Shown here piece after piece: positions 41,740 to 64,000 of a DNA stretch of 64,000 nt. Numbering within the stretch: the first letter of the stretch is position 1; each line of letters begins with the position of its first letter. Both the position numbers and the translations under genes were made by a program. The notes under the pieces were generated by a model. It had not been told where the DNA came from and did no database searches. It was given only the letters and a program-made list of their open reading frames with translations. The stretch comes from an uncultured Lachnospiraceae bacterium. GTDB taxonomy: Bacteria > Bacillota > Clostridia > Lachnospirales > Lachnospiraceae. The stretch is taken from NCBI GenBank assembly GCA_944383765.1, contig CALWQT010000001.1, positions 1 to 64,000 of the forward strand, in the 5' to 3' direction.

Positions 41740-41791
41740 AGATAATCGTAAAAATTTTTACGAAAAACGAAATTTTATCTTATATACATTC

Positions 41792-41820
41792 TTGCCTGCG
41801 AAACATAAATGTCGTATAAT
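41792..41820 (+). promoter_or_regulatory. Promoter of the giant secreted-protein gene
   Basis: TTGCCT-17 nt-TATAAT, perfect -10 box, ~98 bases before the ATG. The leader is AT-rich with no clear riboswitch; 41678-41791 otherwise holds only the upstream terminator. Confidence 0.7.
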
Positions 41821-41918: not shown

Positions 41919-42014
41919 ATGATAAAGTTATTTTCAAAGGCAAGAAAAAGCAAGATGGCAGGGCTGCTGATCTGTTCTATGATGATGCAGAATATTTCAG
42001 GCTTGGCCCAGGCA
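41919..42014 (+). other. Signal peptide of the giant protein
   Basis: Basic n-region MIKLFSKARKSK, hydrophobic core AGLLICSMMM, and AQA-G at residues 30-33 as signal-peptidase I site. The Cys at residue 19 has no lipobox after it, so it is a secreted rather than lipoprotein signal. Confidence 0.7.
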
Positions 42015-45000
42015 GGCACCGGGGAACTTTTTGCCTCCAATAAAGCTACCGGATCGGAATATGATCTTGAACTTTTAGATGGGAATATTCCGGAATATCC
42101 CAATCTGGTAATCCAAACAAATGCCAAACAGCCGGGAGGTTCCAGCGCCGTTGTAGAAGGAATGGTAACCCTTGGTAAGAGGCAGGAGTCTGAGGTAGAA
42201 TTTACCATACAGCCAGAAGGAGCTGCTACCAATACATTTGGGGGAGTGATGGTCCGTTTAGACCTTCCTTATTTGATTCGGGAAAAAGGAAATCCGAATG
42301 CCCCTGTATTGTCTTACTATGGAGCAGAAAGCGGGATTGATACAGATAAATATGATATTCTGGGAGGGCTGGAGTTTTATTATGACAAAGGTCAGAATGA
42401 TAAAAGTTTTTCCGTTTACAACCCAAAACAGCAGAATATGGAATTACTTGCTGATGAGATAGAAGAAAGTGATGTACCGGAGAAAATAGAGAGCAATGTG
42501 ACGGAGGAGAGCCAGGGAACAGAAGAAACAGATGCGGCTGAAGATGGAGAAACTCCGGAGAATATAGAGAACAGCGAAGCTGGGGAGAACGGGAACCAGG
42601 AGAAACCAGAGGACGTTGAAACGGATGGAAATAACGATTTGGAAGACGCAGCAGATGCTTCTTCCGAAACGGATAGGGTTCCGGAGAATACGGCGGATAG
42701 TGAGAGCGCGGAGAGAAAAACAACAGAAGATGCAGGTCAGGAAAGTAAAACAGCTTCCGCTCTAACGATCAAAAAAGCTTCCGCAGGTGTTTTTTCTTCT
42801 ATATGGCAGAAACTATTTGGCACTTCGCAAAAGGACGAATGGATTCCGGAAGGGGATGCAGCCGATATAACAGAAACCGATACGGAAGAAACGGATGCAG
42901 CAAATACCAGTCTGTTTTCCCTGGATGGAGAAGCGGGTACATATGCGGAAACTGCCGATGGTGATATGCTGGTGCCTGAGGAAACCATAGTATTTCCTAC
43001 TTCCGGTGAAATGGTGGCAGTTACCTCAGGAGATAAAACTTATTACCGTGGGGCTTTTGCTGCGAATCTTTTAACGCAGGAATACAATCCTAATGATAAT
43101 GCGATTATGAAGGGAACAGTCCGCTTCTGGCTGAACCAGGGAGCGAATCTTCCGGAGGGAACCACAGCCAGGGTATTTGCCTGGTCTCATTATCAAAAAT
43201 ATAAACCGAATGGCAGTAATTATTATATTGAAGCCAGTGCGTTTAGCCTTCCGGCTTTCGTTCCGCTTACTCCTTTTACCGGAACAGGAATGGCTACCTT
43301 TTTGTATACCAATATTGACTGGGATATTACGCTGGAGCCGATGAAGGGAAATGGAAAGGAGGAGAATGGAAAAGATGCTTATGTGCTGGCATGGCAGAAA
43401 CATAACTACGCGTCTTTCCGGATGGAAATCCAGAATGTGTCTGGCTATGTAAAGAATGAAGAGACAGGAAAATGGGAACCGCCTACAGACGGGTCGGATC
43501 CGGTTCCGGATGAGACTGTGATTGAAGACTATCAGTTTGATTTTACCAATAACCAGCAGTTATATTGGAGATGGTACAGTATCAGACGGTATTTCCTGGC
43601 ATCTGGGTCAGAATTGGGTTATGAAAAAAATGATAATTATGCGGAACCTACGCCGGGACGTTTGTATACGGGTGTGTGGGCATCTAACAGCCTGGATTCC
43701 AGGAACTATGACTTGGCACAGTATGATGAGATGGGTGGAATCCTGATCCTGGATGTGACAGAGTTACCGGAAGAACTTCAGGATTCAGAAGATGCAGATG
43801 AACTTCTGAATGCAGGAGCAAAACGGATAGGTTATTCAGCTACTGCAGAAAATACATTTGCATTCACAGACCATGATGTTCTGTATCCTCCTCATTTAGC
43901 GGAGAAAGGATTGCAGACAAAAAAGATATATCGGATTTTTGTTCCTTATACGAATGACCTTCAATTTGACAGTGACGGAGAAATAGAATCGGCAAAGATG
44001 GACCTGAATGCCAAAATCTTTTTTGGTCCTAAAAAACAGTCAGAAGCATCTCCTTCCGAAACAGTCCCGGAAGAAGATAATAAAGGAATCTATCAGTGGA
44101 CGAAATATGACCGGGACGGGAATCAGGTGTATTTTAAACAGCCGGAATATGTAGTCAGCACTTCAAAAGATATGGAAACCCAGCCCATTATTTATGTGGG
44201 TCAGGAAGTCTCCTATGCAATAGACCAGATTGATTACCAGCCGTCTGAGGATTTAAGAGCACTTGGCTATCAAAAGACAGATTTACCGCCTTTATATCGC
44301 GCCAGAGTGATCGATGAACTTCCTGCGGAGTTTGACCTGACTCATGTGGAGATTCGGGTGAATACAGCGGAGAAATCTCCCGGACCAGATTATCTGGATG
44401 AAAATTATGGCGGCCCGGATCCAATGGTAGGGCTTGGTGTGAAGCGGACCTTGGAAGGATTTCCGGCGGATTATACACTTTTACAGTATAAAGGCAGCGA
44501 TGGAACGTGGAAGGATATTGAGACGCCGGAACCGGTTATCCGTACAGAAGGGGAAAATACGGTATATTTGCTGGATTATGAAGAAACCCTGAAAAATAAT
44601 GCGGATTTCCGTAAATATCATACCGTCAGGATTAACTACCGATATAATTATAAGCCCTATACTTCTCAGGATGTAATCTGCATCAAAGGACGGGCAAAAG
44701 TAGCTGATAAAAATCTGACGAATAAAGCTACGGTAGAATTTATCCGTATGAATTATAATCCTACGGCAGCGGAAGAGTCAGAAAACTTATCTGACCGGGT
44801 TGGATATTATCCTGTGGATAACGAAGAATATCTGGAAAAGGCAGGAGATGAGAGTGTAGACGAGTATGAGAAGTCAGACCTGGAAGCAAAGCTTTATGCC
44901 AAAATGCTGAGCGGAGAGGAAGTCTTTATAGAGGATACGGAACCGTTACGGACACCTTTGGCAGGTCTGAATGGCAGTTATCTGCTGAAAGTAAAAAGCA

Positions 45001-48000
45001 AAAATAATGGATATGCTTATAATACAGATCTGACGGTAAATGTCCCATCTGTTGCTCCCAGTTACGAGGAAGGCCATGAAGGCGAAGAAGTAGAAGGATT
45101 TGTTACGGCTGGTATTTATCTGAATCTGGCTCTTTTGAAAGCAGGAGAACCCCAGTATCAAAGAGATGCTTCGGGAGCTATTATTTATGATGAGGACACG
45201 GGACTTCCAGTAGAAGATACTTTTATTACCATAAAAGGGACACGTACATGGGAAGAACAGAAAGTTGAGAACGGAAAGCCGGTTTTTGATACGAATGGAA
45301 ATCCGGTGATGGAAACAAAAACAGAGCCGACTGAACTCAAATTTAAGAGGGAAGAACTTCTTGCAGCCAAACCGGATGGCTCGTTGGTTTTTGCACCGCC
45401 ATCCTATGCAGTGTATCCGGAGGCGCATCAGGATTGTATTTACATTCCTATCAAAAATAAAGACTTAAATGATAATGAGTATCAGATGGGAACTGTTGAC
45501 AGCATTCGCCTGGACTACAGTGTAATCTATGGAAAAGATGTGCTGGAGCAGATGGGAGAAGAACAGGGACTTGAGGCAAAGAAAGCTCAGGATTCCCAGT
45601 ATATGGAAATCGTCGGTACCAGCTATAACCTGACTACCTGTGTGGCTGATGTAAGCGGCCGGGTAAATGGTTGGAGAGATAAGTTTACGAACGAACCGGC
45701 AAAAGTTGATAATAACGTTTATGATATCAACCCGGATACAGAGGATGGGAAACCTTCCGAAACAGCCGCCTTGATTTTTGAAATGGCAAAACCGGAGATA
45801 ACCGGAAGCGTGAACTGGGTGAACTGGGAGAAGCAGCTAGCTACCGGTCAGTATCTGTATATTCCAATCAATAGAGAGTTTTATTATGAAGTCCGTTATG
45901 GGAATACTGCAAAAGCATTGATGGATTCCGGAGAAGTCATGCTTTCCTATGAAGTGAACCCGCAAAACCAGGGATTTATCCTGGACCGTCTGGAAGTAGA
46001 ACTGAAAAAGCCTGACGGAGAGCCGGTGGCGAATTTTGATGAGATTCTTCTTTATACGACAGACCAGATCGGGAAAGATATCCAGGAGAATACCTTGCCG
46101 GAACGGACGGCATCGGCTGCCGTTATATTAAAGAGAGAAAAACTTTCCCAGTATTTGAGTGAGGATGGAACAAAATATGTAATTCCAAGTGATGCCTGGA
46201 AAACAGAGGATGGAACAGAGCGGACTGTTTGTGCGGTACGGGTACATTTCCGAAATATGAAAGCGGAAATGAAAGATCAGCAGAATGACTGGGTATCCAT
46301 TCGGTCTTACGGATATTCCAATGTGTACGAGCAGAACCTGGAGATGAAAGACAAGTTCTATGCTTACAGTGCGCCCATGCCTCCAAACGGGGAATCCAGG
46401 ATCACAACGGATGCTACAGCTGACCTTTCCCAGATGTTTTTGGACACCAATCCCAAGACGTCCGTATCTACGTCTTATACAAGACCGGAAGATAGTGGAA
46501 AGTATAGAAATAACTATAGCCAGAATGGTACGGTATACCAGTATCAGAATACAGAGCCTGCAGGCGGAACAACTGGACTTACCAATCCATCTTATGACCT
46601 GTATTATGATAACATTCCCATGCAGATCACGGCCAATTATGCCAACTATTATGTAAATGGAACGAGAAATATGCCTCTTTCAGATATGTATCCGGCAGTG
46701 GCTGCCCTTACGGTAGATGCCAGGGTCAATCCGGATACGAAGGAAGCAGAAGGCATTTTGCTGCAGCAGCTGGCAATTCCTAAGAACCAGGATACTTTTG
46801 AAAATGCTTATGACAATATCACAGAAATCCGGTTCTATGGTTTTGACAGTGATGGGAAGGCATTAGGCGATAGCGAGAAAGCATACGTATCGTTAAGCCA
46901 CGATGACCTGTTTAACAGTGACGGTACTCCCAAACAGCTGGAAGATGGTGGAACGACCTGGATATTGAAGTCTGAAAAATGGGAAGCATTAGGGGCATTT
47001 GTGGTCACCAAGGTAGAAGTCTGCTTTGACCGGTTCCAGGCTGGACTGAAGGCAGACGATGGCTTTAATCTGGTTTACCAGGCGGTTACTACCCAGCCCG
47101 GATTTATGAATATCCGCAGCGATTTCTATACAGATGTCCGCAGGGCAGAGAAGGCTAATAATATAGAAGACTGGAGAAACTGGTGCAGATGGACAGATGA
47201 TAATGGTTGGACACATTATACATACTATTATCCGGACCATATCGGAGGACAGTCTTCTGCTAATCTTCCGCCGGAATATCGCCCTACAGATAAAGGGGAA
47301 AAGGCTCCATATATCGGATACAATTATTGTAATAAACCGATTTTGATAGGTTATACCGGAGCCTGGGCCGATGCGGATGCATATTATGATTCTGACCAGT
47401 ACGGGAAAGTGAGCGGTTACAGCCAGCACAGAAAAGAAATCTATGTACCGTTTAATGATTATACCCGGACCTTCCATTTCTATATGGGTTCCGGTTATGG
47501 CTACTATCCATTGGACCAGAGCAGTTTGCATATAGAACTGCCTGTTTCCTGGGAAGCAAAGATTGGAGAGGATGGCCAGCCGGAAGGCGGGGAAATGGCG
47601 AAAGGATTCCTGTTTGATTCTCTTGCTATCAGTAAAGAAAATCTGGAAAAAATGCTGACAGATGATGACCTGGCGTATAATGAAGAGCATTCGGATGCAC
47701 CTCGGACTGGGATTGATAAGATTGAAAAAATTGTAGTGATCGACTGCAAAGACAGTTCAGCCGGTGCTTCCGGTAATGATGTATTATATGAAACCCTTCC
47801 CCAGGGAACCCAGGTGGTGTTTGGAAGGGATGAGATCAAAGGTTTTGATGATGGTAATGGCAATCTGAATCTGACTTTGGAAGCGATTAAACGGAAAGAT
47901 GCTGGTTTCCAGCAGGTGCGTTATATCCGTATCTATTTTGAAAAAATGTCTCAAAAGACAGCGAGCCAGAGAGTACAGATTGATGTAAACGGAAAGACCA

Positions 48001-51000
48001 ACTGTTATCTGGACCGGGAGCTGGATAAGAATACGATTGGCTTGCGGGCAAATAGTGTGGCTTCAACAAAACTCCGCTGGTATTTTAATACGGGTGCAGA
48101 CGGCCGTCCGACCATAGACGCAGGAAATCAGGCAGCTATCTTTATCTACCGTCCAAGGCCTTATGTATTCATGCAGGCACAGTTTACCGACGACAGGCTG
48201 ATTGACCGGGGCTTGACAGTTTCCGGAAGCAATAATTATTCTGCCAAGACTACGGAGCCCAATGTTCTGACAACCAACACCCGTTCCATGTATGCACCGT
48301 TAGGTTATCTTCATGGAATAGTGAGCCAGTATGACAGGACCCAGCACAGTTATAAAGTAATCTTTGGAAATCAGCAGAAAAGCAGGTTCACCGATACCGG
48401 TTGGATAGAGTTGAGCGCCAATGCATATTCGGACCTGGTGAATGTGGAATTTAACGTGGCGATACCGAATTCTCAGGCAGCCGGAAAGAAAGGTTTCCAG
48501 GTGACATCCATCGGACTGGACCCGAATATCCTGAAGTATGGAACAAACTGTGCGATTACCATTTATTACAATGGAGCAGAGATTGATAAGCCTGTCATAG
48601 GGGAGGATGTAGACCGCTATGATGAAGGAGCAATCCGGAATCTATTGGATGCGGCAATTCAGAGCGGGACAGAACCTGCCATTTCTGTGGATTTGGATAA
48701 AAAAGTAACGGCAGTCCAGATTTCCTATGACCAGTATGACGGTAATATCCCGGACAGAAACCAGGTGGACCCGGATACGTTCCAGACTGATGCTGGCACC
48801 ATATATCCGGCATCACAGGAAGAAAATCATCAGAATTATCTGGTCCTGTACGGAATTGCGGATACTTATAATGAAGCAAACCTCTCTACCCAGCAGGATG
48901 AGAAGGGCTCTCCTCTTACGGTCAGCGGTTCGCTGAAGATGGCAGATTACGACCCGTTTGATAGTACAAAAGAAACAATGGTGTCCAATCAGAATGCTTC
49001 TATTACCCCAATGAAACCGAAGCCCACAGTATCGGTAGTAGCGAATGGAGGGGGAGCTTCTTCCGAGACGGCAGGCGCCAGCATTGGACAGAATGCTTAT
49101 TATGAAGTGACAGTAGGAAACAGCGGATACAGCAGAATGTATCAGGCCTATCTGACGGCAGAGGTTCCGGTGAGCCGCAGTCCGAAGGACGAGAGCGGTG
49201 TTGCTACGGTAGGCGGTTTCCGTTTGCAGTCTGTTACATCAGATGCGAATCTGATCAAGCATATTACCAGAGATTACGGAAACGGGGATAAGAGAGTGGA
49301 ACTGGATTCCATTATCCTGAAGGAATTCCCGAAAACAGCCACCACTTCGGAAGTAGACCAGATTCTTATCCGTGCAAAGAGAAATGAAAAGGGAGAAATC
49401 CTGTATGGAGAAACAGACCAGATAACCGGGTTAAAATTCCCCCGGTATGAAGTAACGTATCAGTCTGCCGGTGATACAACGGCAAGTTCATCAGAACTTC
49501 CGGCAGAAGCACTGTTTGATATTCAGGGGGATACGGTTACTTTGAATCTGAAGCTGGATCGCTGGCCGGATTTTGGCTTTGCAGAAAGCTTTGGAATGTC
49601 GGTAGGTTATTTTGATTCTGCAAAAGAAGGAACAGCTCTGGCAGGGGGGACCACAGGCAAGGTGTATTTCCAGGGTATTCCTACCAGCTATATGTATGGA
49701 GAAGATGGTTCCCTGAGTAAGGAACTTCAACTGTGTTCAACATGGAAAGAAAGCTACGAACCGGTAGGAACTTCTCTGGATGTGAAAGTCATCAGCGACG
49801 GACCGGATTGTGCAAAACTTCGGTTAAGCCCGTCTGAACCTATCCTGGGAATGACAGCGGTAAAAGGAAATGATCCGGAGCTGGTGTATGATGGGGAAAG
49901 TGCTGTCAACGGTGGTCTGGGGATTTCCTATGAATATAAGGAAGGTACCTACTACCGTATCATGCTGGGGAATAACTCAGAAAGTGCCATGTCAAAACCG
50001 ATTCTGTCAATTCGTCTGCCTATGAATGGAGATGATCCGGCAACGCAGGAACAGGAAGAGAGGAGAAGAGGTTTTGAACTTACCGGCATCTATTTTGATA
50101 GCAGTCTGTTAGAACCGGCTGGCGGAAGAGAAGAGGCATTGACAGGAGTTCAGCTGGTCCGGATTTATGATGGGATTGAAGAAGAAAATGGTTCTGCCAA
50201 AATGGTGGAACTGGGACCGGATGCACTGGAGCCCTGGGAAGATGGATATCGGATTGATTATACGAAATATTATGAAAATGGAAATGGAATCAAGTATCCA
50301 TCTAAAGTAGAAATCATCTTTACCGGATTTTTGCCAAACATAACGGGTGCTGACAGGGGTGAAGTGCGCCTGTATGGAAACATCAACCGTTATGGTGACA
50401 GTGTGACCAAACAGGGAGTGGACTCTTCGGCCAACAATACGTATGGCAATTACTATATGTCGCCTACAAACAGCAATACTGCCACTAAGGTTGCTGTAGA
50501 CGGAAATATCCTGTTGGCGGATGCAAGTTTTATTGATTATATTTCCGGTACGGAAACGGAGATTGTATCCAACGATGGAAAACAGGCGTGGTCTCACGCA
50601 TGGTTTGATGTGAAAGAACCGAAACCGGTGACCCGCCATTATGTAAAATATTATAATAGAAGCGGAGCTGATGCAGCATCTACGGTTGTACCTTATGCAA
50701 GAGAATATACTACTTCCATCGGAATTGGTAATGACAGTATTTCCCGTATGGAAAACTTCCGGATTGAAATTACGCCGGATATGAGCAAAGCCACAACTGC
50801 GGGAGATGAGGCAAACCGCGGTTTCCATACCATGGATATGGTGATTCGCAATCAGTTGTTCAACGAGGCTGTGATCGACAGGATTACCTTCTACGATGTG
50901 GATGACCCGGCTAAGACCCTGACATTGAAGAGACAGGGCTACGTAGAGGAAGAAATTCCAGGGCCGGAGCATGATTTTTATCAATACACTGCCCCGGTGA

Positions 51001-54000: not shown

Positions 54001-57000
54001 CAGAAGGGTGGAATAATGCAGGCGGTTTATGGAACGGAACTACAAATTATCCCATTTATCCAGAATGGTCCTTCCTCTATTCCCAGAGAATCAACGAGGC
54101 AGCCAAGATACAGGTGGATACAGTTCCGATCACAGAGGGCGGTACTGCGGAACAGCCAGAACCGATTCCGGAATTAAATGATTTTGCTGCGGATAATATC
54201 ACACCAAACCGTCAGGCGTTCCGTGTATGGGCAACCAATACTACGAAGAACAGCACGGGACTTTCCGGTGAAGCAGATCCGCTGTTGGATGCTACCGGTG
54301 TATATTACAATTATCTGAAATACAGCAATACCATGCCGGAAGGCTATCGGATGCAGAAGTTTTGGATTCCGGTGGAATTTATCAATTCCTATGTGACAAC
54401 AGGACAGAAAACAAATGTGACAGAAGACATTCAGGAACTGGGAGAGAATAAATTTACCATCTCCAGTATGAAGTTCCGTTATGCTACAGCGGAAGATTCC
54501 AGCCAGACGGCAGAGTATGACCTTTATGAAAATATTGTAAAGAAACTGATTGAAAATCCAGCGGAAAATACCATACCGGCAGAGTTGCAGACTTATGTCA
54601 GCTATGCAGATGAAAACCGGAATCAGATGAAGCTGTCAGAAGGAGAGAATGCAAGGTATTACTGCATTGACATTGAAAAACTGTTCCTGGATAAGGAGAT
54701 GCAACCGGTGGAAGTGCCGGATAAGGATGACCAGGCAGTATACCTGAAGATGCAGGTGACGGAGTTTACCGCGGAACTGAAGCTGCGGACTACCTGGCGT
54801 ACCAGCTTTGAATTAAACCGGAGACGTTACTTTACTCCGAATGATACTCAGGATGCAACCCTTACTGGTATCAAAGGAAATGCGGAGGGCCAGTTTAAGT
54901 ATGAGGTGGAACCGGCAGATTTCCTGTACGAAGGTGTGTTTGCTGACCGGTTGATCGCAAAAGACGAGGAATACAGCAGCAGTAAGATTCCTGATTTTGA
55001 CTTGGGTTCCAGACCTACCGTGAAAGTGGATCCGTTGGAACTGAATAAGGTGATTACAGATTCCGTTTCCCTGTATATGACCAATGCCAATATCAATACG
55101 TATACCTATGATACAGACAGGACAGACAGTATATTGACAGATGGAAACCGCAGAGAAATTTCCGTTAGCAATTATAAAAAACTGCGTTTCTACAACCGGG
55201 CGGCAAGGATCAATGTGGCGGTGAACCGTCTGCCATATCAGAATGATGCAGGTAACTTAAATCCAGACGTCAACCAGAACCAGAATGGATTGTATACACC
55301 TCTGGCGTTGAATTTTGGCGGTAATGATTTCAATAAGGCTGACCCGAATTATCTGGAAAAGACATATGGGACAGAAAATCTGGCTGCCCGTATGACACCG
55401 GTGGAAATGGACAGCCTGATGCCGGGAGACCGGATTGCTTACTATGTGACGGCTGTCAACGAGAAGGACCAGGAGCCTACCGTAGGCGGGAACCAGAGAC
55501 CGTCAGCAGCATGGATCAATCCGTCCATTCGATTTGATGCGCCGAAGGGTACTCGAATCGCGAAATGGTATTTTATGCCGGAGAATGATGAACTGGGTAT
55601 GCTTCCGACGGTGGATGAGGAAACTCAGCTTTATGTAACGAGAGATGGTCAGCTGACAGAAGATGTATCTCTTGCTACCTTAAGCGAGGCAGCGGCCAGC
55701 ATTGGTTTAGAACAGATTCAAGCACTGGATCCGGACCACAAGCAGGCAGACGGAACTTATGTATCAGTTCCTCATGATACAGAACTGAAAGATATCCTGA
55801 CGGGAATTGAAATGGAGAATCCTACCATCTGGTCAAGGATGGCAAGTTTCTTCAGTATCAACACGACACCGGCGCCGGAAGATGCAATAGACAGCATTGT
55901 ATGGCAGATTGACGGTAGCGTGCCTACCAATAAGGGAATCCGTTTTATGGTCCTGCTGGAAGTAGAAGATGTAACAGCAGAAAACGAAGATGGAAGCCAG
56001 GATGGAAATCTGAATGACCTGGATGGAAAAACCATTGGAAATGCAGAAGTGTATTATGGTACCTGGACGGATACCCATGGATATTCGCCGTATTATTTCT
56101 CCAAGCTTTATGGAGAAAATAAAGCTCCGGCTGCGAATCCTTACGACTACACATCAGAAGCGATCGCTACCGGCAAGGATTCAGCAGGAACCAGGCAGGA
56201 AACCATAAACGGTGGTCATACAGTCTTTTATTACAAGGTTGACCCGAAAGAGGGCTTGACCAAGAATGAAGAAACCTTCCTTTCCGGAAATACCAGAGAC
56301 GGTATGACGGCAAAGGTAACGTCCGGTGGATTCCGGTATTTTGACCTGGAAGGTGAACCTTCCATGAAGATACGGATGGAGAACAATCTGGACGGAGAGA
56401 ATGCAATCCTGACCATAGGAGAGCATACAGAAGCTTCCAGTGAAGGCAGTATCCGCAATGAGACAAAGCGGTTCCTGTCCAAACTTCATGTGGATGTGGA
56501 CTTTATCAGCAATAATACTGAGTGGAACAATCAAGATTTATTATCTCTCCAGGGCTTCTTCTTAAACCGGATGCCAACCAGGGAAGAGATGAGTTACTCC
56601 CAGACATCTGCTACCGGAGAGAAGAATGTGGCCGCTTCCATTTATGTGCAGTTCCGGGATGACCTGAATCCAGACGGAACCATCAAGGAGGAATTGAATG
56701 GTTTAGACCAGGATTACAACCCGGATACTCCGAATGCTATCCGGGAACAGAGAGACGGATACCGTCTGGTACATTATCCGTCGAATGCTGGGGAGGAAGA
56801 GAAGTATCCAAATGGTTACTATATGGATTCTAATGGCCAGAAGCAGGCGGTAGACCCCAGGGAAGTGGCAAGAATCCGGTTTGAATACGGAACGCTGGCA
56901 GCTTATGACAAGAATAAGACTTCTACGGAGACGGATAATTATCTGGTGCTGCCGGAGATCAACCTCTATGGCATCAGCAGCTGGCAGGATGTGGACCCGG

Positions 57001-60000
57001 ATACCAGGGACAAATACGGCTATGTGTATCGTGTTGGCCTGAAGGAAACCAGCTATCTGGATGCGTCCTATGGGGATAATTTCACTACCATGGAACCGGG
57101 AGAAATCACAGATGACCTGAAAGATAAGACAGATGAGGCATTGAAAGGGGAGTTTGAAGAAGAATTAAAGAAAGATAACGGGGATATTACAGATGGTATC
57201 CTGGGGGGAACCGATACGGACGATACCCTGAATACAGAAATTGAGAAAAATACTTATACTTATAAGGTTACCAATCAGGTATCTTATCCGGTGAGAAGGC
57301 GTATGCCGAAGGTGGAATTCGACCATGATAATTACAGTACCAGGGAAAAAGCATTAGCAGGAACGGAAGCAGACAGTCTGACCAGCTATGTGCCGGAAGA
57401 AACTCTCTGGAACCGGATCGAGGTAAAGAATATCCTGAATGAGGATAATGTAGCGAAAACAGAGATTGTAAGGACAGATGCAAATAATGAGGACAATATT
57501 GACACCATGGGCATCCGTCAGAGTATGGGTACGGGAGAGGTATATGCTCCTGTAGTGATCGATAAGGTTCCGGCAGAGTATGTGGATATTCCTGATAATC
57601 TGCTTCCGAAAGATGGAACCGTGACAGAGGAGCCGAAAGAAATTGACCTGAAACAGGCGAAAGACCTTACGATAATCTGGAATTCTACCGATGATGAGGG
57701 AAATCCTCTTGTCCGTACCTGGGAGAATGGAACATTCCAGGTGGCAACTGCTTCGGAAGCGCCTTTGGCGACCTATTCGGAATGTGACTTGAAGCTGACC
57801 GTACATAAAGTGTCTCATAAAGATATTGGCGGAGACCAGGAATTCGACCGGTCAAAATTTGGATTCAGCGGTAATTATCTGGATACGGGAAATCAGTATA
57901 TTGCACCGAATAATACGGATGAAACGCTGACAAAGGCAGATGACGCGGATTATTATGTATATACCTATTCCTTCAGCAGTAAAGACAATACACTGGCTAT
58001 GAAACCGGGAGATACCATTGAGATTGTTTATCCGATGACGGCAAAACGGGATGGACTTCCTATGCTGACTTATATGAATTCCAAAGATGCTGAAGATGAT
58101 GGAAAGAACCTGTATCTTCCTATTATCAATCAATATCAGTATCAGAACGGTTCTGCTCCTAATGGTGACCATATCCGTTCCAAAGAGATGGATATGGATA
58201 ACCTGCTTCATGATGTAGGGTTTACAGGAAGAAGAGAGGGAGAACGCCGGGTTTATACCTGGGAGAAGACAGCAGATGGAACCGATACGGTAAGGATTCC
58301 GGTAACGGACCCGGAGACAGGAGAACCAAAACGGTATGCGGACAGTACCAGGCAGAGGAAGAGTGAGTTCCTCACCGGTTCTGTCACGGAACTTCCGGGA
58401 ATGCTTCATGTAACATCTACCAATGGAGTGGACGGTTATCAGAATAATGGAAACATTTACGATTATGATATCAATTCCTCTGACTGCCATGATGTGGTAG
58501 TGAGGGCTGATGAAACAGCAGTGGGAAGCGCAGCTGCCTGGGACGAGTCAGCAGAATTGCTGCCCAACTATTATAATGTAAGTTATCGTTACAGCAATGG
58601 AACATACAACTATTACGGAGTATCGTATGGTATCAATGACTGGTATAGCCAGCTGATGGATGCCCGTACCTATGAAACGACAGGAAAGCAGCTGGGAAAT
58701 GCAGAGAATGCTTCCGATAAAGCGGTAGTTTATACAGAAGGAGATGAGAAAGGGGAACTGATCGGAGAAAATATTCTCTGGACAGAAGAACCGCTCCATT
58801 TGAGAAAAGCATGGCTTTACGGAGCTTCCCAGATTATTCCGGATACCGGAAATCTGCAGTACAATGGAAGCACTACTGTTACTACACCGGCTCTCCAGTT
58901 TGGAGATACGTATACAGCGAAGCTAACGGCCATGAACTATGGAGACCGGGCACTGGACGGTGTGTCTATGACCTATGTCCTGCCCAAGGGTGTGATGCCA
59001 AGGCTGAACGAAGACAATGAACTGGTTCTGGAAGCTTCTGACGGAACGCCGACAGTAAGAGCTTATTATGGGGCTGATTATTCTGCTGCAAATCAGATCA
59101 CCCTTGACCGCGACCACATTAAGATTACGGCAAGGCCTGCATCTGCTTCAGAACTGACAGAGGCGGATTTGGAGAAAATCCATCTGGCGCCAAAAGCTCC
59201 TGGCGATCCGGTACGTTATAATCAGTTCGCAGATAAGGATAAGGCAGATAAGCCTTATAATTACTCCAGAATTCCGGAAAATGCAGCCTGGGTGATCGAA
59301 ATCACCATGGATAAAGAACTGGGAGCATGGTGGAACCGTGGAACGAATGATGTAAACCATCGGATTTCCGTGGAAATTCCCTGTGTAGTAGTGGCACAGC
59401 CGGATCAGGAAGCTTACTTTGATGCTCTGTATGTATCGCCTTATGATGACGGACAGGATTTTGGAGCGGATGGAGAAATCCTTCCTTCCGAACTGTATTA
59501 TCAGATTTATGACGACAGTTATGCGTACCGTTATGGAAACAGTTATTATAAGACTCCGGAAACCATTGTTTCTAATGGAAGATATCTGTATGCAGATACC
59601 TTCCTGCATGGAGAAGATTATGGTGCGGCTGGAAGCGGAGCAGATTTCTCTACGATTACAAAGAATCTGGTCATCAATGATAGGTTTGAGAAACAGAACA
59701 GTTGGGATTCTGACGGAGATGGAACGGATGATACCAGAAAATCCGTGAGAACAGGGGCCCAGGCAATCCTTGCCAAGCCGATGATGCGTCACTGGGCGGA
59801 AGTGTCCGATGAAAAGGAAGACGGCAGTGAGAAGACAGGAGCGGAGATTGCTGCTGAGTCAAAATTTGATGAATTCTTCCAGAATGTGGAAAGCCCGTTT
59901 AAGGTAAGGCTGATCACCGAAAATCAGCTGGTGATGACTAATATTAAAAGCGGTGGAGATTTACGTTATGGAAGAATGGAAGAAACACCATATAGCTATT

Positions 60001-63000
60001 ATATGTATCCGAATTACCAATCTCCATACGGGGAATCTACATATGCCCCATATTTGAGTGATGTGACTGGAAGCCAGAAGGGAGCCAAGTATCCGCTGCC
60101 TGCGATTACGGCAATCCTTCCTGAGCGGATGGTTCCGATGATGGCAGATGGAAGCGTATATTATAAGAATGCAGACGGAACGGATGAACTGATGGAAACA
60201 GACCAGCTGTCCTTTACGATGAGAACCTTTAAGGTCAGCACATTGAAAACAGATGCCAATAAAGAAACAACAGATGGCAGCCCGTTTGATATGGAACAGT
60301 ACCGGGAGCACTATAAAGTGTATGTGGGATATGAAAAGGATATTGACCGGTATATCGTGAAGTTTATTCCTTCATCACCCACTTACGCAGATGATTATGA
60401 ATCCATGAACCAGATTCTGGAGGCACCGATGCTGCCTAACAATGAGAGCCTGATGATCGAAATTGGCATGATGCCGATTGGAAGTCCGGATGATACTCTG
60501 GAAAATGGAGATTCAGATCCGGAACTTCTGAAAAAATGGCAGTCCTTGAGAAGTTTTGCAGGAAGTACCCTTCCGGGATTCAAGTTTGTTACTGATGATG
60601 CCAGCAATGCCAGCTCAAACAAAGGTTTGGTCATTGATGGAACTACAGCAGACAAAAAACATGGAAATTATTTCTATGTAGGAAAGGCTTACGCTGGAAC
60701 GGATATGGTCAATGGAAATGGAGTAGGATATTCTATATATTCGCCATATTATGGCAGGAATTATTCTGGCCAGGTATTCCATGACACCAGACTGGATTCT
60801 ACCGGATATGACGGCAGGATCAATTCCAATGACCGGGTACAGTTCTTAGGCAGAATGGTAAGGATTTCTGAAGCCGATAACGATGGAAAAGCCTTTGACT
60901 TAAATGTGGAAGACTATAAGAAAAGACAGGAAAAGAACATTAGCTATGACAGTCTTGACCTGAATGGAAACAGTCAGGTATCCCGGGTAGAAGAAGGCAA
61001 GATGATTTCCGATGAATGTGTGATGAACCAGATGTATGTCTACACCAAACGTCCGAATATCATGTTAGACATGAGGATGAGCCTGACGGTAGATGAAGAT
61101 GGTGTGGGAGACGATAATGGATCACCGGATTACAAAGGAAGGGATGCCCATACCGGACAGGCAGTATGCTGTGATGACTATCCTATGTGTGACCATGACT
61201 ACTTTGAAAATCCCAATGCACTGTCAGAGGAAGATATTCCAAAGCTGGGATACAATGACCGTGTGTGGTATACCATTACTGTAAAGAATCAGCCGTCAGA
61301 ATCTGTGAAACTGGAAAAAGTGACCGATCCGGATACTGGAAAGGTGACTGACCAGATCGTTACAAATGGCTTGGGGATTTATCAGAGCTGGGATACTTAT
61401 CTGGAACTGCTGCGGAATCCGAATGAGGGAGCATCTCAGGACCTCCAGAGATATTATGGAGGCGGTTATTTCAGCGGCATGCCACTGGTCAATGTGAAAC
61501 AGAACAGTAGGTTTTCTTCTTGGGATAATTGGTCCAGAATCCGCCAGAGGAAGGTAACGGAAAGCGGCGATGTGGCTCATGGCGCCTTTGTATTTTCCCA
61601 GTATCTGCCGGAAGCTTTGGCCTATGACAGAGAACTGGCTATTGCGACTTATAAAGAAGACGGCACGATAGACCAGCTGTTAACGAAAGAAGAGGCAGAA
61701 AAACAGGGATGGACCATTATCGATAACACGGAATTGCCAACATTTAATGAGAATGGTGTAAAGAAAGACAATGTGAAATTTGTCAGTGTTACGGTGATTC
61801 CTCCGGCAATGGACAGAGATGGAAATATAATGGCAGACGGCGGTTTCGCTGGCATGGGAGAAGGGGAAAGCTTTTCCGCGATTGCTCAGGGAGACAGACC
61901 GGCTGGATATCTGGCAAGCGGTCAGAGGTTTGCACTGAAGATCCGGACCAGGGTATCGGACCTTCCGGAACTGGGAGCGGAGGATAATTATGATGAAAAT
62001 GGTGTTTCCAAAGACCAGTATGCAGCCCATGCGTTTGTAAACCTGGAAAGACTGGATGGAGATTATGAAAGCCTGACAGGGAACCAGGAAGAGAAACCGG
62101 CGTATACGTATGACCAGTTCCTGGATCAGAACCGGGATATGGTTTCCTATTATTCAGGAACTACCGGTTATGGTACAGAAGAAAAGGTGGTAGTAAAAGA
62201 TGGAGAAGACCTGCCGGAAGGATTTGTAAAAGATAACGTGATTCCGGAACCTCAAGATCAGAAGTGGAATCAGCAGTTTGAGAATCCGTACCAGACCGAA
62301 TATGCAGTGGATACGTCTTTTGGAATTAAGGTGACAGCGCCCAGTGGTTATGCAAAATACAATATGAATCCGGCGCTGATCCGTACCACAGGAAGTTTCC
62401 GAGACCCAGGATATCACAGTACAGATGTGATCCATATGTATCTTGGTGAAGGAACGCTGCTGACTGGCGGTGCAGGAGCTCTGTATCTGGTTGACAATAT
62501 TCCATTGTATGGTCTGCCTCACAATAAGGAAATGCCAGATCTGGTGGCATCCAATATTGGAAGCCTGGAAGATGCACAAGATGTGAAGCAGGTGGTCAAC
62601 CATATTGAAACGGTACGGACTGGAAAATGGTCCATACCAGAGGATGATAATCTGTATGAATCCATGCTGATGAATCCATCTCAGGAAGAGATTGATGAGT
62701 ATAAGAAAGATCTGGAAGAAAAACTGAAGGTGCACGTATTCTATACCATCCGTGAGGAAACGGGAGATGAACGTGCGGAGATTCCAAAAGAAGGTTTTGA
62801 TCCGGAGCAGGAAGATGATATCTGGCATGAAATTCCAGGTACCCAGGGCGGAAAGGTGGGAATCCATGATAATGTGGAATTGGATTTCCCAAAACAGGCC
62901 AACGGGGATTGGATCAATGTAAGCCAGATCATGATCGCTATTTATGCGGATGACAGGGATTATTATCCGGTACCAACCGGTTTCCGGCTGGATGTGGATA

Positions 63001-64000
63001 ATGATCTGTCAGAAGAAGGCAATCAGGATATGCACGAGATGCAGAATCCAATTGACCGTAAAAAAGGTACTGGTCATTATCCGTATCATATGCAGGAGTA
63101 TGAGACCAGCGAGGCAGGAGAAGGCGGTACTCCGGCTGTAGAGAATACAGTTGAGAACAATGGCGCATTTATCCGTATGGCCAGCGGAACCAACTATCCG
63201 GGTGTTATCTATACGGCTCATTACAGCCAGGCATATATCAATTACAGTGATGATCATTATGAAAAACTGGAAGGGGCCAATATACCTGAACAGATAGGAG
63301 ATTCCGATGACAGCGGGGAAGAATTGTACAAGGTAAATCCTGAAAATGATAAGATCTTCTCGAAAACCGGTATTATCCTGTTGAGCAAACAGCCGATTGC
63401 AAAGCTCACGATCAAGGACCGTTATTTCAAATATATCCGGTATGATGAAGAGGGAGAACCTCTTGATAATCCTTATTATCAATGGGTGGATGGAGTTACA
63501 TTGGAAGAATCTTCCAAATTGATTGCTTATCATCTCACTTTGGACAATTTCGACCAGGCTTATATTGACCAGTATGGTTTTAATAAAGATGATAAGGAAG
63601 ACAACTTTACCAATCCGGTCATTACGGTTAAGATTCCTAAGATCTTGGGTATCAACTCTAAATTCGAGTATGCCCCTTATGAGGATACGCTCAGCCCGGT
63701 TCACCCGTTGAACCCTAACTATAAGATTACCAATTCCGACGGTTATTTGTCAGATGCTTCGTTATATTGGACTTACCGGATCGTGCATCCTGTCTATGAC
63801 GAAAATGGAGATTTGGTGGAGTATATTGACAAGACAGCTGATACGGATATTGAACTTCTAGTGGATTATGGAACAGATGGGGCAGAACTGACGGGAGATT
63901 ATCGGAATGGTAATCAGCTTTTGAAATTCCGTTTTGGAGAAAAAGGCAAGACACCTCAGAGCGGCTCTGCCAACCTGGCTCCTGGTGACAGCATTGTGAT
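41919..64000 (+). CDS. Giant secreted multi-domain protein (partial, at least 7,360 residues)
   Basis: One frame stays open from ATG 41919 (GGGGAG eight bases upstream) to the last base, with no stop. Frame continuity was checked at many points. It starts with a Sec signal peptide (MIKLFSKARKSKMAGLLICS, cleavage after AQA ~residue 32). An acidic low-complexity segment covers ~residues 178-281. After that, long stretches rich in Asp, Glu, Asn, Tyr and Gly look like repeated beta-sandwich modules. Several begin with a DUF11-like pattern such as YYEVTVGN or DTYTAKLTAMN and end in a Leu-Pro or Val-Pro strand. No catalytic motif, LPXTG or surface repeat was recognised; the C terminus is outside. 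His/Cys-rich spots and Asp-x-Asp loops suggest metal or Ca2+ binding. Most likely a surface or extracellular structural protein or adhesin. Confidence 0.9.
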   Translation, partial: MIKLFSKARKSKMAGLLICSMMMQNISGLAQAGTGELFASNKATGSEYDLELLDGNIPEYPNLVIQTNAKQPGGSSAVVEGMVTLGKRQESEVEFTIQPEGAATNTFGGVMVRLDLPYLIREKGNPNAPVLSYYGAESGIDTDKYDILGGLEFYYDKGQNDKSFSVYNPKQQNMELLADEIEESDVPEKIESNVTEESQGTEETDAAEDGETPENIENSEAGENGNQEKPEDVETDGNNDLEDAADASSETDRVPENTADSESAERKTTEDAGQESKTASALTIKKASAGVFSSIWQKLFGTSQKDEWIPEGDAADITETDTEETDAANTSLFSLDGEAGTYAETADGDMLVPEETIVFPTSGEMVAVTSGDKTYYRGAFAANLLTQEYNPNDNAIMKGTVRFWLNQGANLPEGTTARVFAWSHYQKYKPNGSNYYIEASAFSLPAFVPLTPFTGTGMATFLYTNIDWDITLEPMKGNGKEENGKDAYVLAWQKHNYASFRMEIQNVSGYVKNEETGKWEPPTDGSDPVPDETVIEDYQFDFTNNQQLYWRWYSIRRYFLASGSELGYEKNDNYAEPTPGRLYTGVWASNSLDSRNYDLAQYDEMGGILILDVTELPEELQDSEDADELLNAGAKRIGYSATAENTFAFTDHDVLYPPHLAEKGLQTKKIYRIFVPYTNDLQFDSDGEIESAKMDLNAKIFFGPKKQSEASPSETVPEEDNKGIYQWTKYDRDGNQVYFKQPEYVVSTSKDMETQPIIYVGQEVSYAIDQIDYQPSEDLRALGYQKTDLPPLYRARVIDELPAEFDLTHVEIRVNTAEKSPGPDYLDENYGGPDPMVGLGVKRTLEGFPADYTLLQYKGSDGTWKDIETPEPVIRTEGENTVYLLDYEETLKNNADFRKYHTVRINYRYNYKPYTSQDVICIKGRAKVADKNLTNKATVEFIRMNYNPTAAEESENLSDRVGYYPVDNEEYLEKAGDESVDEYEKSDLEAKLYAKMLSGEEVFIEDTEPLRTPLAGLNGSYLLKVKSKNNGYAYNTDLTVNVPSVAPSYEEGHEGEEVEGFVTAGIYLNLALLKAGEPQYQRDASGAIIYDEDTGLPVEDTFITIKGTRTWEEQKVENGKPVFDTNGNPVMETKTEPTELKFKREELLAAKPDGSLVFAPPSYAVYPEAHQDCIYIPIKNKDLNDNEYQMGTVDSIRLDYSVIYGKDVLEQMGEEQGLEAKKAQDSQYMEIVGTSYNLTTCVADVSGRVNGWRDKFTNEPAKVDNNVYDINPDTEDGKPSETAALIFEMAKPEITGSVNWVNWEKQLATGQYLYIPINREFYYEVRYGNTAKALMDSGEVMLSYEVNPQNQGFILDRLEVELKKPDGEPVANFDEILLYTTDQIGKDIQENTLPERTASAAVILKREKLSQYLSEDGTKYVIPSDAWKTEDGTERTVCAVRVHFRNMKAEMKDQQNDWVSIRSYGYSNVYEQNLEMKDKFYAYSAPMPPNGESRITTDATADLSQMFLDTNPKTSVSTSYTRPEDSGKYRNNYSQNGTVYQYQNTEPAGGTTGLTNPSYDLYYDNIPMQITANYANYYVNGTRNMPLSDMYPAVAALTVDARVNPDTKEAEGILLQQLAIPKNQDTFENAYDNITEIRFYGFDSDGKALGDSEKAYVSLSHDDLFNSDGTPKQLEDGGTTWILKSEKWEALGAFVVTKVEVCFDRFQAGLKADDGFNLVYQAVTTQPGFMNIRSDFYTDVRRAEKANNIEDWRNWCRWTDDNGWTHYTYYYPDHIGGQSSANLPPEYRPTDKGEKAPYIGYNYCNKPILIGYTGAWADADAYYDSDQYGKVSGYSQHRKEIYVPFNDYTRTFHFYMGSGYGYYPLDQSSLHIELPVSWEAKIGEDGQPEGGEMAKGFLFDSLAISKENLEKMLTDDDLAYNEEHSDAPRTGIDKIEKIVVIDCKDSSAGASGNDVLYETLPQGTQVVFGRDEIKGFDDGNGNLNLTLEAIKRKDAGFQQVRYIRIYFEKMSQKTASQRVQIDVNGKTNCYLDRELDKNTIGLRANSVASTKLRWYFNTGADGRPTIDAGNQAAIFIYRPRPYVFMQAQFTDDRLIDRGLTVSGSNNYSAKTTEPNVLTTNTRSMYAPLGYLHGIVSQYDRTQHSYKVIFGNQQKSRFTDTGWIELSANAYSDLVNVEFNVAIPNSQAAGKKGFQVTSIGLDPNILKYGTNCAITIYYNGAEIDKPVIGEDVDRYDEGAIRNLLDAAIQSGTEPAISVDLDKKVTAVQISYDQYDGNIPDRNQVDPDTFQTDAGTIYPASQEENHQNYLVLYGIADTYNEANLSTQQDEKGSPLTVSGSLKMADYDPFDSTKETMVSNQNASITPMKPKPTVSVVANGGGASSETAGASIGQNAYYEVTVGNSGYSRMYQAYLTAEVPVSRSPKDESGVATVGGFRLQSVTSDANLIKHITRDYGNGDKRVELDSIILKEFPKTATTSEVDQILIRAKRNEKGEILYGETDQITGLKFPRYEVTYQSAGDTTASSSELPAEALFDIQGDTVTLNLKLDRWPDFGFAESFGMSVGYFDSAKEGTALAGGTTGKVYFQGIPTSYMYGEDGSLSKELQLCSTWKESYEPVGTSLDVKVISDGPDCAKLRLSPSEPILGMTAVKGNDPELVYDGESAVNGGLGISYEYKEGTYYRIMLGNNSESAMSKPILSIRLPMNGDDPATQEQEERRRGFELTGIYFDSSLLEPAGGREEALTGVQLVRIYDGIEEENGSAKMVELGPDALEPWEDGYRIDYTKYYENGNGIKYPSKVEIIFTGFLPNITGADRGEVRLYGNINRYGDSVTKQGVDSSANNTYGNYYMSPTNSNTATKVAVDGNILLADASFIDYISGTETEIVSNDGKQAWSHAWFDVKEPKPVTRHYVKYYNRSGADAASTVVPYAREYTTSIGIGNDSISRMENFRIEITPDMSKATTAGDEANRGFHTMDMVIRNQLFNEAVIDRITFYDVDDPAKTLTLKRQGYVEEEIPGPEHDFYQYTAPVTEGKPAPSTVNQTVVYEVYVGDSKLEGVEISRSDGTVQPKSLADGVYTVEQGDLLLGRDYIIEKAQMRNIGKIVVEGSDFLPMRNPDYSLDGDDAKKDTSVTPSANEAIMLVGISDEKDNSTESANYQSNPSLSVRTYIQSGFATWLYSHSYKDFLDSDKEVTGEQDGENNFEDVATEKHQRSNRANSYIYPTNLYFDTTISAVFKDDGYIWKDVETLPVPMADTVHSLDKRFSDETIGRNVIRDARTGGQNKYIWLDLTPHCDGHSSSGWCTHYNHDDTYPHQHHNVRQYYMDNELLTLGYKAMGSYTVDFRQLFYEAAGNGTILQDYNAAAAVEMTIDLPADNFDAYYVKLRAALKPYVTQVTVVYSDGTEKVIPQSEWEGNASHHTTYGNKTDYSIQEDKDAGNEWWRINLVSKDDLYGDIPNAYALNTVYDPRDVDGDDSTYPYYKSPAVITEKGGIDKVKVRMEINETPAKNGAIISADEGIWYRENTDPRKAPRTESGWDDTSTMAYQNSIPNLQEQNKRNIKDQETRHSIEVAGRMIKTGENTASVSTHLEMGTLFRTDGQDTISKKPVKPENQVIKLREETGTEEKRNSSWSYMNYFVYYMCTGSINDYHDWQPVTEIARQYSAPWHAGHIYDTASFNVLPSQVTVDKGTGQTNNLKPFGIASGNIATDIMSPVAYGSLRAYAMGINQVIHWPVTEENKNLVKTEKWYTHWYGTYGSHHVDDHYKNYYSNLYDEWLNRVAHVDTVTVTDTLPVISKQDGWYKGFLSRYLEVDETIRPHIMKIEVEISEHETDNGGNPNSPNVAYPTQEGDVKQEIKETRTVVLDYDDFLYGEHTGEHEGRVLFRYATPSTADKYLGSNQANAEMAGDYFNDGVQKLPDGTCVVELKRNEYPSKVTFTVVNLEGNGDQTGEFTGVTPDGNERGTTAIVNPTVNWESQMTNKKADFYIFGDVEEVIEDLPSPVTDPGNRANRQASQYGYTQNPDGTVTSDGKNQTEGWNNAGGLWNGTTNYPIYPEWSFLYSQRINEAAKIQVDTVPITEGGTAEQPEPIPELNDFAADNITPNRQAFRVWATNTTKNSTGLSGEADPLLDATGVYYNYLKYSNTMPEGYRMQKFWIPVEFINSYVTTGQKTNVTEDIQELGENKFTISSMKFRYATAEDSSQTAEYDLYENIVKKLIENPAENTIPAELQTYVSYADENRNQMKLSEGENARYYCIDIEKLFLDKEMQPVEVPDKDDQAVYLKMQVTEFTAELKLRTTWRTSFELNRRRYFTPNDTQDATLTGIKGNAEGQFKYEVEPADFLYEGVFADRLIAKDEEYSSSKIPDFDLGSRPTVKVDPLELNKVITDSVSLYMTNANINTYTYDTDRTDSILTDGNRREISVSNYKKLRFYNRAARINVAVNRLPYQNDAGNLNPDVNQNQNGLYTPLALNFGGNDFNKADPNYLEKTYGTENLAARMTPVEMDSLMPGDRIAYYVTAVNEKDQEPTVGGNQRPSAAWINPSIRFDAPKGTRIAKWYFMPENDELGMLPTVDEETQLYVTRDGQLTEDVSLATLSEAAASIGLEQIQALDPDHKQADGTYVSVPHDTELKDILTGIEMENPTIWSRMASFFSINTTPAPEDAIDSIVWQIDGSVPTNKGIRFMVLLEVEDVTAENEDGSQDGNLNDLDGKTIGNAEVYYGTWTDTHGYSPYYFSKLYGENKAPAANPYDYTSEAIATGKDSAGTRQETINGGHTVFYYKVDPKEGLTKNEETFLSGNTRDGMTAKVTSGGFRYFDLEGEPSMKIRMENNLDGENAILTIGEHTEASSEGSIRNETKRFLSKLHVDVDFISNNTEWNNQDLLSLQGFFLNRMPTREEMSYSQTSATGEKNVAASIYVQFRDDLNPDGTIKEELNGLDQDYNPDTPNAIREQRDGYRLVHYPSNAGEEEKYPNGYYMDSNGQKQAVDPREVARIRFEYGTLAAYDKNKTSTETDNYLVLPEINLYGISSWQDVDPDTRDKYGYVYRVGLKETSYLDASYGDNFTTMEPGEITDDLKDKTDEALKGEFEEELKKDNGDITDGILGGTDTDDTLNTEIEKNTYTYKVTNQVSYPVRRRMPKVEFDHDNYSTREKALAGTEADSLTSYVPEETLWNRIEVKNILNEDNVAKTEIVRTDANNEDNIDTMGIRQSMGTGEVYAPVVIDKVPAEYVDIPDNLLPKDGTVTEEPKEIDLKQAKDLTIIWNSTDDEGNPLVRTWENGTFQVATASEAPLATYSECDLKLTVHKVSHKDIGGDQEFDRSKFGFSGNYLDTGNQYIAPNNTDETLTKADDADYYVYTYSFSSKDNTLAMKPGDTIEIVYPMTAKRDGLPMLTYMNSKDAEDDGKNLYLPIINQYQYQNGSAPNGDHIRSKEMDMDNLLHDVGFTGRREGERRVYTWEKTADGTDTVRIPVTDPETGEPKRYADSTRQRKSEFLTGSVTELPGMLHVTSTNGVDGYQNNGNIYDYDINSSDCHDVVVRADETAVGSAAAWDESAELLPNYYNVSYRYSNGTYNYYGVSYGINDWYSQLMDARTYETTGKQLGNAENASDKAVVYTEGDEKGELIGENILWTEEPLHLRKAWLYGASQIIPDTGNLQYNGSTTVTTPALQFGDTYTAKLTAMNYGDRALDGVSMTYVLPKGVMPRLNEDNELVLEASDGTPTVRAYYGADYSAANQITLDRDHIKITARPASASELTEADLEKIHLAPKAPGDPVRYNQFADKDKADKPYNYSRIPENAAWVIEITMDKELGAWWNRGTNDVNHRISVEIPCVVVAQPDQEAYFDALYVSPYDDGQDFGADGEILPSELYYQIYDDSYAYRYGNSYYKTPETIVSNGRYLYADTFLHGEDYGAAGSGADFSTITKNLVINDRFEKQNSWDSDGDGTDDTRKSVRTGAQAILAKPMMRHWAEVSDEKEDGSEKTGAEIAAESKFDEFFQNVESPFKVRLITENQLVMTNIKSGGDLRYGRMEETPYSYYMYPNYQSPYGESTYAPYLSDVTGSQKGAKYPLPAITAILPERMVPMMADGSVYYKNADGTDELMETDQLSFTMRTFKVSTLKTDANKETTDGSPFDMEQYREHYKVYVGYEKDIDRYIVKFIPSSPTYADDYESMNQILEAPMLPNNESLMIEIGMMPIGSPDDTLENGDSDPELLKKWQSLRSFAGSTLPGFKFVTDDASNASSNKGLVIDGTTADKKHGNYFYVGKAYAGTDMVNGNGVGYSIYSPYYGRNYSGQVFHDTRLDSTGYDGRINSNDRVQFLGRMVRISEADNDGKAFDLNVEDYKKRQEKNISYDSLDLNGNSQVSRVEEGKMISDECVMNQMYVYTKRPNIMLDMRMSLTVDEDGVGDDNGSPDYKGRDAHTGQAVCCDDYPMCDHDYFENPNALSEEDIPKLGYNDRVWYTITVKNQPSESVKLEKVTDPDTGKVTDQIVTNGLGIYQSWDTYLELLRNPNEGASQDLQRYYGGGYFSGMPLVNVKQNSRFSSWDNWSRIRQRKVTESGDVAHGAFVFSQYLPEALAYDRELAIATYKEDGTIDQLLTKEEAEKQGWTIIDNTELPTFNENGVKKDNVKFVSVTVIPPAMDRDGNIMADGGFAGMGEGESFSAIAQGDRPAGYLASGQRFALKIRTRVSDLPELGAEDNYDENGVSKDQYAAHAFVNLERLDGDYESLTGNQEEKPAYTYDQFLDQNRDMVSYYSGTTGYGTEEKVVVKDGEDLPEGFVKDNVIPEPQDQKWNQQFENPYQTEYAVDTSFGIKVTAPSGYAKYNMNPALIRTTGSFRDPGYHSTDVIHMYLGEGTLLTGGAGALYLVDNIPLYGLPHNKEMPDLVASNIGSLEDAQDVKQVVNHIETVRTGKWSIPEDDNLYESMLMNPSQEEIDEYKKDLEEKLKVHVFYTIREETGDERAEIPKEGFDPEQEDDIWHEIPGTQGGKVGIHDNVELDFPKQANGDWINVSQIMIAIYADDRDYYPVPTGFRLDVDNDLSEEGNQDMHEMQNPIDRKKGTGHYPYHMQEYETSEAGEGGTPAVENTVENNGAFIRMASGTNYPGVIYTAHYSQAYINYSDDHYEKLEGANIPEQIGDSDDSGEELYKVNPENDKIFSKTGIILLSKQPIAKLTIKDRYFKYIRYDEEGEPLDNPYYQWVDGVTLEESSKLIAYHLTLDNFDQAYIDQYGFNKDDKEDNFTNPVITVKIPKILGINSKFEYAPYEDTLSPVHPLNPNYKITNSDGYLSDASLYWTYRIVHPVYDENGDLVEYIDKTADTDIELLVDYGTDGAELTGDYRNGNQLLKFRFGEKGKTPQSGSANLAPGDSIV
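42450..42760 (+). other. Acidic Glu/Asp/Ser/Asn-rich spacer of the giant protein
   Basis: About 104 residues (178-281) such as ESNVTEESQGTEETDAAEDG with hardly any hydrophobic or aromatic residue. It is probably disordered and separates an N-terminal domain from the modular part. Confidence 0.7.
51783..51860 (+). other. His/Cys cluster in the giant protein, candidate metal site 1
   Basis: From residue 3289: HCDGHSSSGWCTHYNHDD followed by TYPHQHHN. Seven His and two Cys fall within 26 residues, flanked by ordinary module sequence. Confidence 0.6.
53142..53207 (+). other. His/Tyr/Trp-rich segment in the giant protein
   Basis: From residue 3742: WYTHWYGTYGSHHVDDHYKN. Aromatic and His residues dominate, unlike the Asp/Asn-rich surroundings. 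Confidence 0.5.
59706..59732 (+). other. Ca2+-binding-like Asp loop in the giant protein
   Basis: DSDGDGTDD at residue 5930 matches the Asp-x-Asp-x-Asp-Gly pattern of thrombospondin type 3 or dockerin-like calcium loops. A single copy rather than a repeat array. Confidence 0.5.
61092..61202 (+). other. Asp loop and Cys/His cluster in the giant protein, candidate metal site 2
   Basis: DEDGVGDDNGSPD is followed 12 codons later by AVCCDDYPMCDHDYFE at residue ~6415. Three Cys and two His (one upstream in DAHTG) lie close together, in a protein otherwise poor in Cys. Confidence 0.5.

Follow-up and report, generated by a model that had tools for sequence, protein, structure and literature searches.

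Here, we present an analysis of a giant gene in the genome of an uncultured Lachnospiraceae bacterium (2.58 Mb, 29 contigs, 99.55% complete). The gene starts in the window, i.e., the 64,000-bp stretch of DNA that was analyzed, which corresponds to bases 1-64000 of contig C1 (635,253 bp), and it encodes a protein of 9,429 aa with a mass of 1,057,550 Da (~1.06 MDa; sum of residue masses). We consider it likely, with a probability of roughly 70%, that this protein is the structural gene product of a three-gene module and forms a sortase-B-anchored giant adhesive fibre. Together with its homologues, it defines a family of proteins of 7,000-12,000 residues, most of the length of which is without family annotation. 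The gene and its surrounding signals are located as follows:

41699..41737, unstranded: terminator-like hairpin (stem of 17 bp) that sets the giant gene apart from the oxaloacetate decarboxylase operon lying 5' of it
41747..41762, unstranded: perfect 16-bp palindrome CGTAAAAATTTTTACG, 5' of the promoter of the giant gene
41792..41820, + strand: sigma-70-type promoter, TTGCCT-N17-TATAAT, with 10/12 consensus positions
41919..63998, + strand: initial 7,360 codons of the gene for the giant surface protein, with an ATG start; the gene runs on to C1:70208
41919..42017, + strand: signal peptide MIKLFSKARKSKMAGLLICSMMMQNISGLAQAG, read from the sequence, with an AxA-type cleavage site and counterparts in the paralogue and homologues

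A preliminary description of this DNA had claimed a frame that is open for 7,360 codons up to the window edge, a product of more than 800 kDa, and a promoter, ribosome site, and signal peptide of the gene's own. These claims were borne out. Following the frame through the whole of contig C1, we found the stop codon at C1:70208, and the in-window part of the protein alone amounts to 826 kDa. In addition to the promoter and the AxA-type site, an RBS-like GGGGAG can be read a few bases 5' of the ATG. Neither a stop codon nor a frameshift was found in the window part of the gene; the paralogue on contig C2 of the same genome does have a frame break. At the given base composition, the probability that the frame of the full gene is open by chance is ~10^-258. 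Matches to the palindrome CGTAAAAATTTTTACG with at most two mismatches are expected 0.02 times in the window, and this palindrome is possibly an operator; it has no counterpart upstream of the C2 paralogue. Based on this absence and on the lack of long, well-matched inverted repeats flanking the promoter, an invertible promoter was rejected.

The part of the protein encoded in the window divides into three regions:

42816..44918, + strand: N-terminal all-beta region, aa 300-1000, kept in all homologues (alignment, AF2 model with pLDDT 57, and Foldseek)
45000..50255, + strand: array of diverged repeats that varies in length, about aa 1030-2780
50256..63998, + strand: core of diverged Ig-like/DUF11-like domains, about aa 2780-7360 in the window, colinear throughout the comparison of nine giants

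Residues 1-7360 have no Pfam match above the cut-off and none to the PADLOC or PHROGs families, and NCBIfam, for which the scan covered residues 1-2333 and the C-terminal part, has no match in residues 1-2333. The earlier statement that no described family is recognizable over most of the length thus holds for these residues and databases, and no full-length similarity to a characterized family was found. A profile of three sequences of one core block also found no relative among the PDB sequences (best E=0.83). Repeats were identified by self-comparison with HMMER. Based on the nine-way alignment, in which the nine giants are homologous along the chain, the diverged-repeat array spans about 3,500-3,900 aa in the homologues of 12 kaa and explains most of the length gap between these forms and the window giant, and the colinear core reaches about aa 7750 in the full protein. 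The core is followed by SdrD_B domains (PF17210, 85 bits, three stretches), then by (DP)n, and finally by the anchor. In the longer subclade, and in the window giant, one SdrD_B domain carries a coiled-coil insertion. A Cys/His-rich stretch near aa 3290 was considered for metal binding, and this was rejected because the Cys positions vary across the homologues.

The C-terminus has the organization of a sorting signal, i.e., QIPKTGDSQG, a hydrophobic stretch, and RKKKEEE, and it matches the LPXTG anchor model TIGR01167 with 28.2 bits against a cut-off of 15.9 (E=2e-6). Judged by its predicted signal peptide and this sorting signal, the giant is an LPXTG-type sortase-anchored protein, and the wall anchor that the preliminary description had proposed to look for is present. 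The SdrD/SdrC models match only about 34 residues, and neither Pfam (aa 1-7360, above the cut-off) nor NCBIfam (aa 1-2333) gives a match that would indicate an N1-N2-N3 DEv-IgG region. Because this N-terminal ligand-binding region was not found, we do not file the giant as an MSCRAMM.

AlphaFold models of aa 300-1000 and of aa 5575-5995 in the core are both beta-rich (mean pLDDT of 57 and 49, respectively). In Foldseek, the N-terminal model matched the C-domain of AgI/II (5dz9; 3.5e-6), and the core model matched the pilins SpaA, RrgB, and PilB and the Ig-like domains of PrgB at ~1e-4 with a probability of 1.00; integrins score equal to the pilins, and the TM-scores are 0.1-0.25 by query length. 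Because both models are of low confidence, we limit the fold call to "Ig-like beta sandwich." Within this limit, the models point to Ig-like beta sandwiches resembling pilin/adhesin domains in the modelled parts. If all domains are such sandwiches, then the extended chain would measure a few hundred nanometres. No domain with a known ligand specificity was recognized in the giant; aa 300-1000 are a candidate for the tip or ligand-binding part.

The giant gene is the first gene of a trio, in which it is followed by genes for a transmembrane (TM)-anchored SBP_bac_5 protein (SBP) and a class B-like sortase:

C1:70214-71911: SBP_bac_5 gene (Pfam PF00496), separated from the stop codon of the giant gene by a 5-bp gap
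C1:71928-72722: class B-like sortase gene, two genes downstream of the giant gene

The trio has the same gene order on C1, on C2, in G253 (Clostridium sp. MCC353), and in G700. In G721 (Clostridium sp. chh4-2), ORFs of 560 and 254 aa with N-termini near-identical to those of G253 occupy the places of the SBP and the sortase, and in G587, which belongs to another family of the order, an SBP gene lies upstream of the giant gene and the contig stops before the 3' side. The giants of G152 and G674 have no SBP or sortase next door, and a complete trio is thus not required. In the C1, C2, and G253 trios, the SBPs match PF00496 (E of 1.9e-40, 7e-26, and 1.1e-52, respectively). In the PDB, the relatives of the SBP include AppA, DppA, and Lmo0135 at 1e-20 to 1e-26 and PrgZ (4faj) at 4e-15. 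All three SBPs begin with a single hydrophobic helix, and none has a Cys, as expected of a lipobox, within the first 45 residues. The catalytic-type His and TC...R residues are kept in the three sortases aligned. The scores to TIGR03064 are 129 bits (C1), 137 bits (C2), 144 bits (G700), and 163 bits (G253) with a curated cut-off of 153.75, which only the G253 sortase exceeds. Moreover, IPKTG is more usual as a substrate of class A sortases. Because three of the four sortases score just under the cut-off and the motif is typical of class A, the pairing of giant and sortase rests on genome position. The genome encodes three sortases, one beside each of its two giants and a third within C5:21279-30765 (- strand), beside a protein of 2,905 aa whose terminus is LPXTG-like (VPVTGDDTN). 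These positions suggest that each sortase serves a large client of its own.

The preliminary description had offered a surface structure, an adhesin, or a predation/defence factor as options. Among these, a wall-anchored surface structure is supported by the sorting signal, the class B-like sortase, the SdrD_B domains, and the Ig-like folds. Nothing speaks in favor of defence: the weak PADLOC matches (JetC/LmuB) are confined to the coiled coil and are compositional, and this role was rejected. An alternative role would be that of a nutrient-capture scaffold, in which the giant captures (glyco)peptides from the diet or from mucin and passes them to the SBP for import by a distant permease, while adhesion is secondary. 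The SBP is a full-length member of a peptide-binding family and is kept beside the giant in the trio loci, and a gene for a CitMHS-family transporter (C1:72744-73952) lies downstream of the sortase gene in the same genomic block, as would fit such a scaffold. However, no genes for an ABC permease or ATPase are present among the module neighbours tested on C1 and C2, the SBP has a TM helix in place of the usual lipobox, and the genes scanned with Pfam downstream of the C2 trio include no CitMHS gene, making this alternative unlikely.

The giant of the second trio, on C2, measures about 10,200 aa and is likewise accompanied by an SBP and a sortase. It is 36% identical to the window giant along about 8,600 aligned columns. 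Its gene starts at C2:137902 with a good RBS, a signal peptide, and an N-domain and then goes out of frame at a run of 11 G:

C2:138538-138548: G11 tract, at the frame break after the signal-peptide/N-domain part

Past this tract, the gene continues in a different frame that stays open for the remaining 10,103 codons; an intact frame of 30 kb downstream of the break is not what would be expected of an old pseudogene. The tract is the only G/C run of at least 10 in the whole genome; in the 175 kb of the genome that were examined, twelve runs of 6, none of 7-10, and one of 11 are present. The window giant gene has no such homopolymer tract. We suggest that the G11 tract is probably a phase switch of the C2 giant that would operate by slipped-strand mispairing. 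It is also possible that an assembly error in the tract accounts for the frame break or that ribosomal frameshifting bridges it. A poly-G switch in a megadalton gene of Clostridia, if true, would be an unusual case of slipped-strand phase variation for this group.

Altogether, we propose a model for the sortase-anchored adhesive fibre. The open frame, the sorting signal, the SBP and sortase neighbours, the recurrence of the trio, the purifying selection on a homologous pair, and the patchy distribution are observations, whereas adhesion, the fibre length, the role of the SBP, and phase switching are the elements that we infer. According to this model, Sec would export the giant through its signal peptide, and outside the cell, the giant would fold into Ig-like beta domains that form a long chain; at the end of this chain would lie the calcium-type SdrD_B domains, the coiled-coil insertion, and the wall-spanning (DP)n stretch. 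The class B-like sortase of the trio would recognize IPKTG and attach the giant to peptidoglycan. The N-terminal region would then be held far from the cell and might contact a host glycan, a protein, or a neighbouring cell. The TM-anchored SBP would most likely help the giant to fold or assemble at the membrane, or else it would sense a peptide that governs the use of the giant, and the copy of the module on C2 would be turned on and off by its poly-G tract. More tentatively, and with less confidence than we have in the fibre itself, we speculate that the trio could be one machine, i.e., a megadalton wall fibre with a class B-like sortase of its own and with a TM-anchored OppA-like protein that lacks a transporter and governs the folding, display, or engagement of the fibre. 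This machine would exist as two diverged copies, and in one of them, the only long poly-G tract of the genome would act as a phase switch. The recurrent association, in several lineages, of a giant, a private sortase, and a peptide-binding protein without a transporter suggests an unrecognized helper for building or controlling giant fibres.

The giant family appears to be an undescribed one of a known kind, i.e., giant Gram-positive surface proteins. Ebh/Embp of staphylococci is a single-gene surface protein of about 1 MDa and about 10,000 aa, and Ebh is assembled from tandem helical repeats of the FIVAR/GA type. The window giant is likewise a single-gene surface protein of ~1 MDa; in contrast to Ebh, it appears to consist of beta-sandwich domains, is mostly non-repetitive, and has no Pfam match to FIVAR/GA. 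With the SdrC/D/E MSCRAMMs of staphylococci, it shares SdrD_B domains, an LPXTG anchor, and a wall-spanning low-complexity stretch, which is (DP)n in the window giant and SD in Sdr; however, the window giant is about seven to ten times longer, and the sortase that adjoins it appears to be of class B rather than of class A. The PrgB/PrgZ system of the Enterococcus plasmid pCF10 combines an Ig-like surface adhesin with an OppA-like SBP (PrgZ). The resemblance extends to the Foldseek matches of the giant, which include 8beg, and to the match of the SBP to PrgZ. Unlike PrgB/PrgZ, the module has no plasmid match and no conjugation genes identified beside it, its SBP is TM-anchored, and a sortase is part of it. 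Giant1-5 of Apilactobacillus kunkeei are similarly extracellular Firmicute proteins, of 3,000-8,000 aa, with a proposed role in adhesion/biofilm and an accessory distribution (PMC12863079). Giant1-4 have N-terminal beta-solenoids, Giant1-3 form helical-repeat rods, and the Apilactobacillus homologues have an SH3b-like C-terminus; the word sortase is absent from the text of that paper (PMC12863079). By this description, the window giant is set apart by its Ig-like/SdrD_B architecture, its LPXTG-type anchor, and its SBP and sortase partners. In open-access papers, we found no description of the giant family, and the main text of a survey of huge proteins does not mention Lachnospiraceae, Clostridia, or SdrD (PMC11573180).

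Homologues of 7,000-12,125 aa that are colinear along most of their length are present in seven other genomes, e.g., 12,125 aa in G253, 12,081 aa in G721, 7,929 aa in G700, 7,725 aa in G674, and 7,311 aa in G152. The domain order is conserved across bacterial families and is not the product of simple repeat amplification. The dN/dS ratio was computed for the G253/G721 pair, as no sufficiently close relative of the window gene was available; it is 0.086 over 12,069 codons, and no full 1,000-codon stretch exceeds 0.14, supporting that these two giants are under purifying selection over their whole length. With the single window protein as query, no relative was found in the genome contigs; with the alignment as query, two named relatives were found. 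In a class-wide search, only short partial matches in smaller ORFs were found outside the present genome. Viral contigs and plasmids contain no relative of the giant, and thus, no phage or plasmid origin is indicated.

The giant family is present in 3/397 genomes of the family (including the present one), in 6/392 genomes of the order, and in 1/9 genomes of the genus, with none in the eight congeners. This distribution bears on the idea that the giant is an S-layer-like or structural coat protein without a specific ligand, as its Ig-like array, its high acidic content, and the fact that length and domain order hardly differ between the closely related giants of G253 and G721 could suggest. However, a protein found in 3/397 family genomes and in none of eight congeners is not a general envelope component, and sortase anchoring is not the mode of S-layers; we therefore regard a coat as improbable. 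Least probable of all is contact-dependent antagonism or predation, with the giant as a stalk that confronts other bacteria with a toxic or lytic tip: while predation-linked giant proteins are known in other phyla, and the size and patchy accessory distribution suit weapons as well as adhesins, Pfam finds no toxin, lytic, or protease family along the giant, the chain ends in a wall anchor, the neighbours on C1 and C2 include no conserved immunity-like gene, and the PADLOC matches lie in the coiled coil only.

In the congeners G059, G397, and G400, the gene for oxaloacetate decarboxylase alpha is directly followed by the choline-binding gene that is located at 74045 in the present genome. It follows that the genes for the giant, the SBP, the sortase, and the CitMHS transporter form a block of ~32 kb that is absent from this site in the three congeners, rather than the giant replacing about 20 ordinary genes, as had been claimed. 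The block could be either a gain in the present genome or a loss in the congeners. Insertion by a simple mobile element was rejected, as the ends of the block have no direct repeat of more than 9 bp. At the site of the C2 module, the BirA gene is the sole match to the congeners in the stretches compared. In G674, a 2,551-aa ORF (C52:41709-49364, - strand) with a signal-peptide-like start lies directly upstream of the giant gene. Finally, the giants of G587 (C290) and G646 (C358), from the other family of the order, contain 0.3-0.4% Lys and zero to one Cys over about 7,000 aa, while their arginine content is normal.
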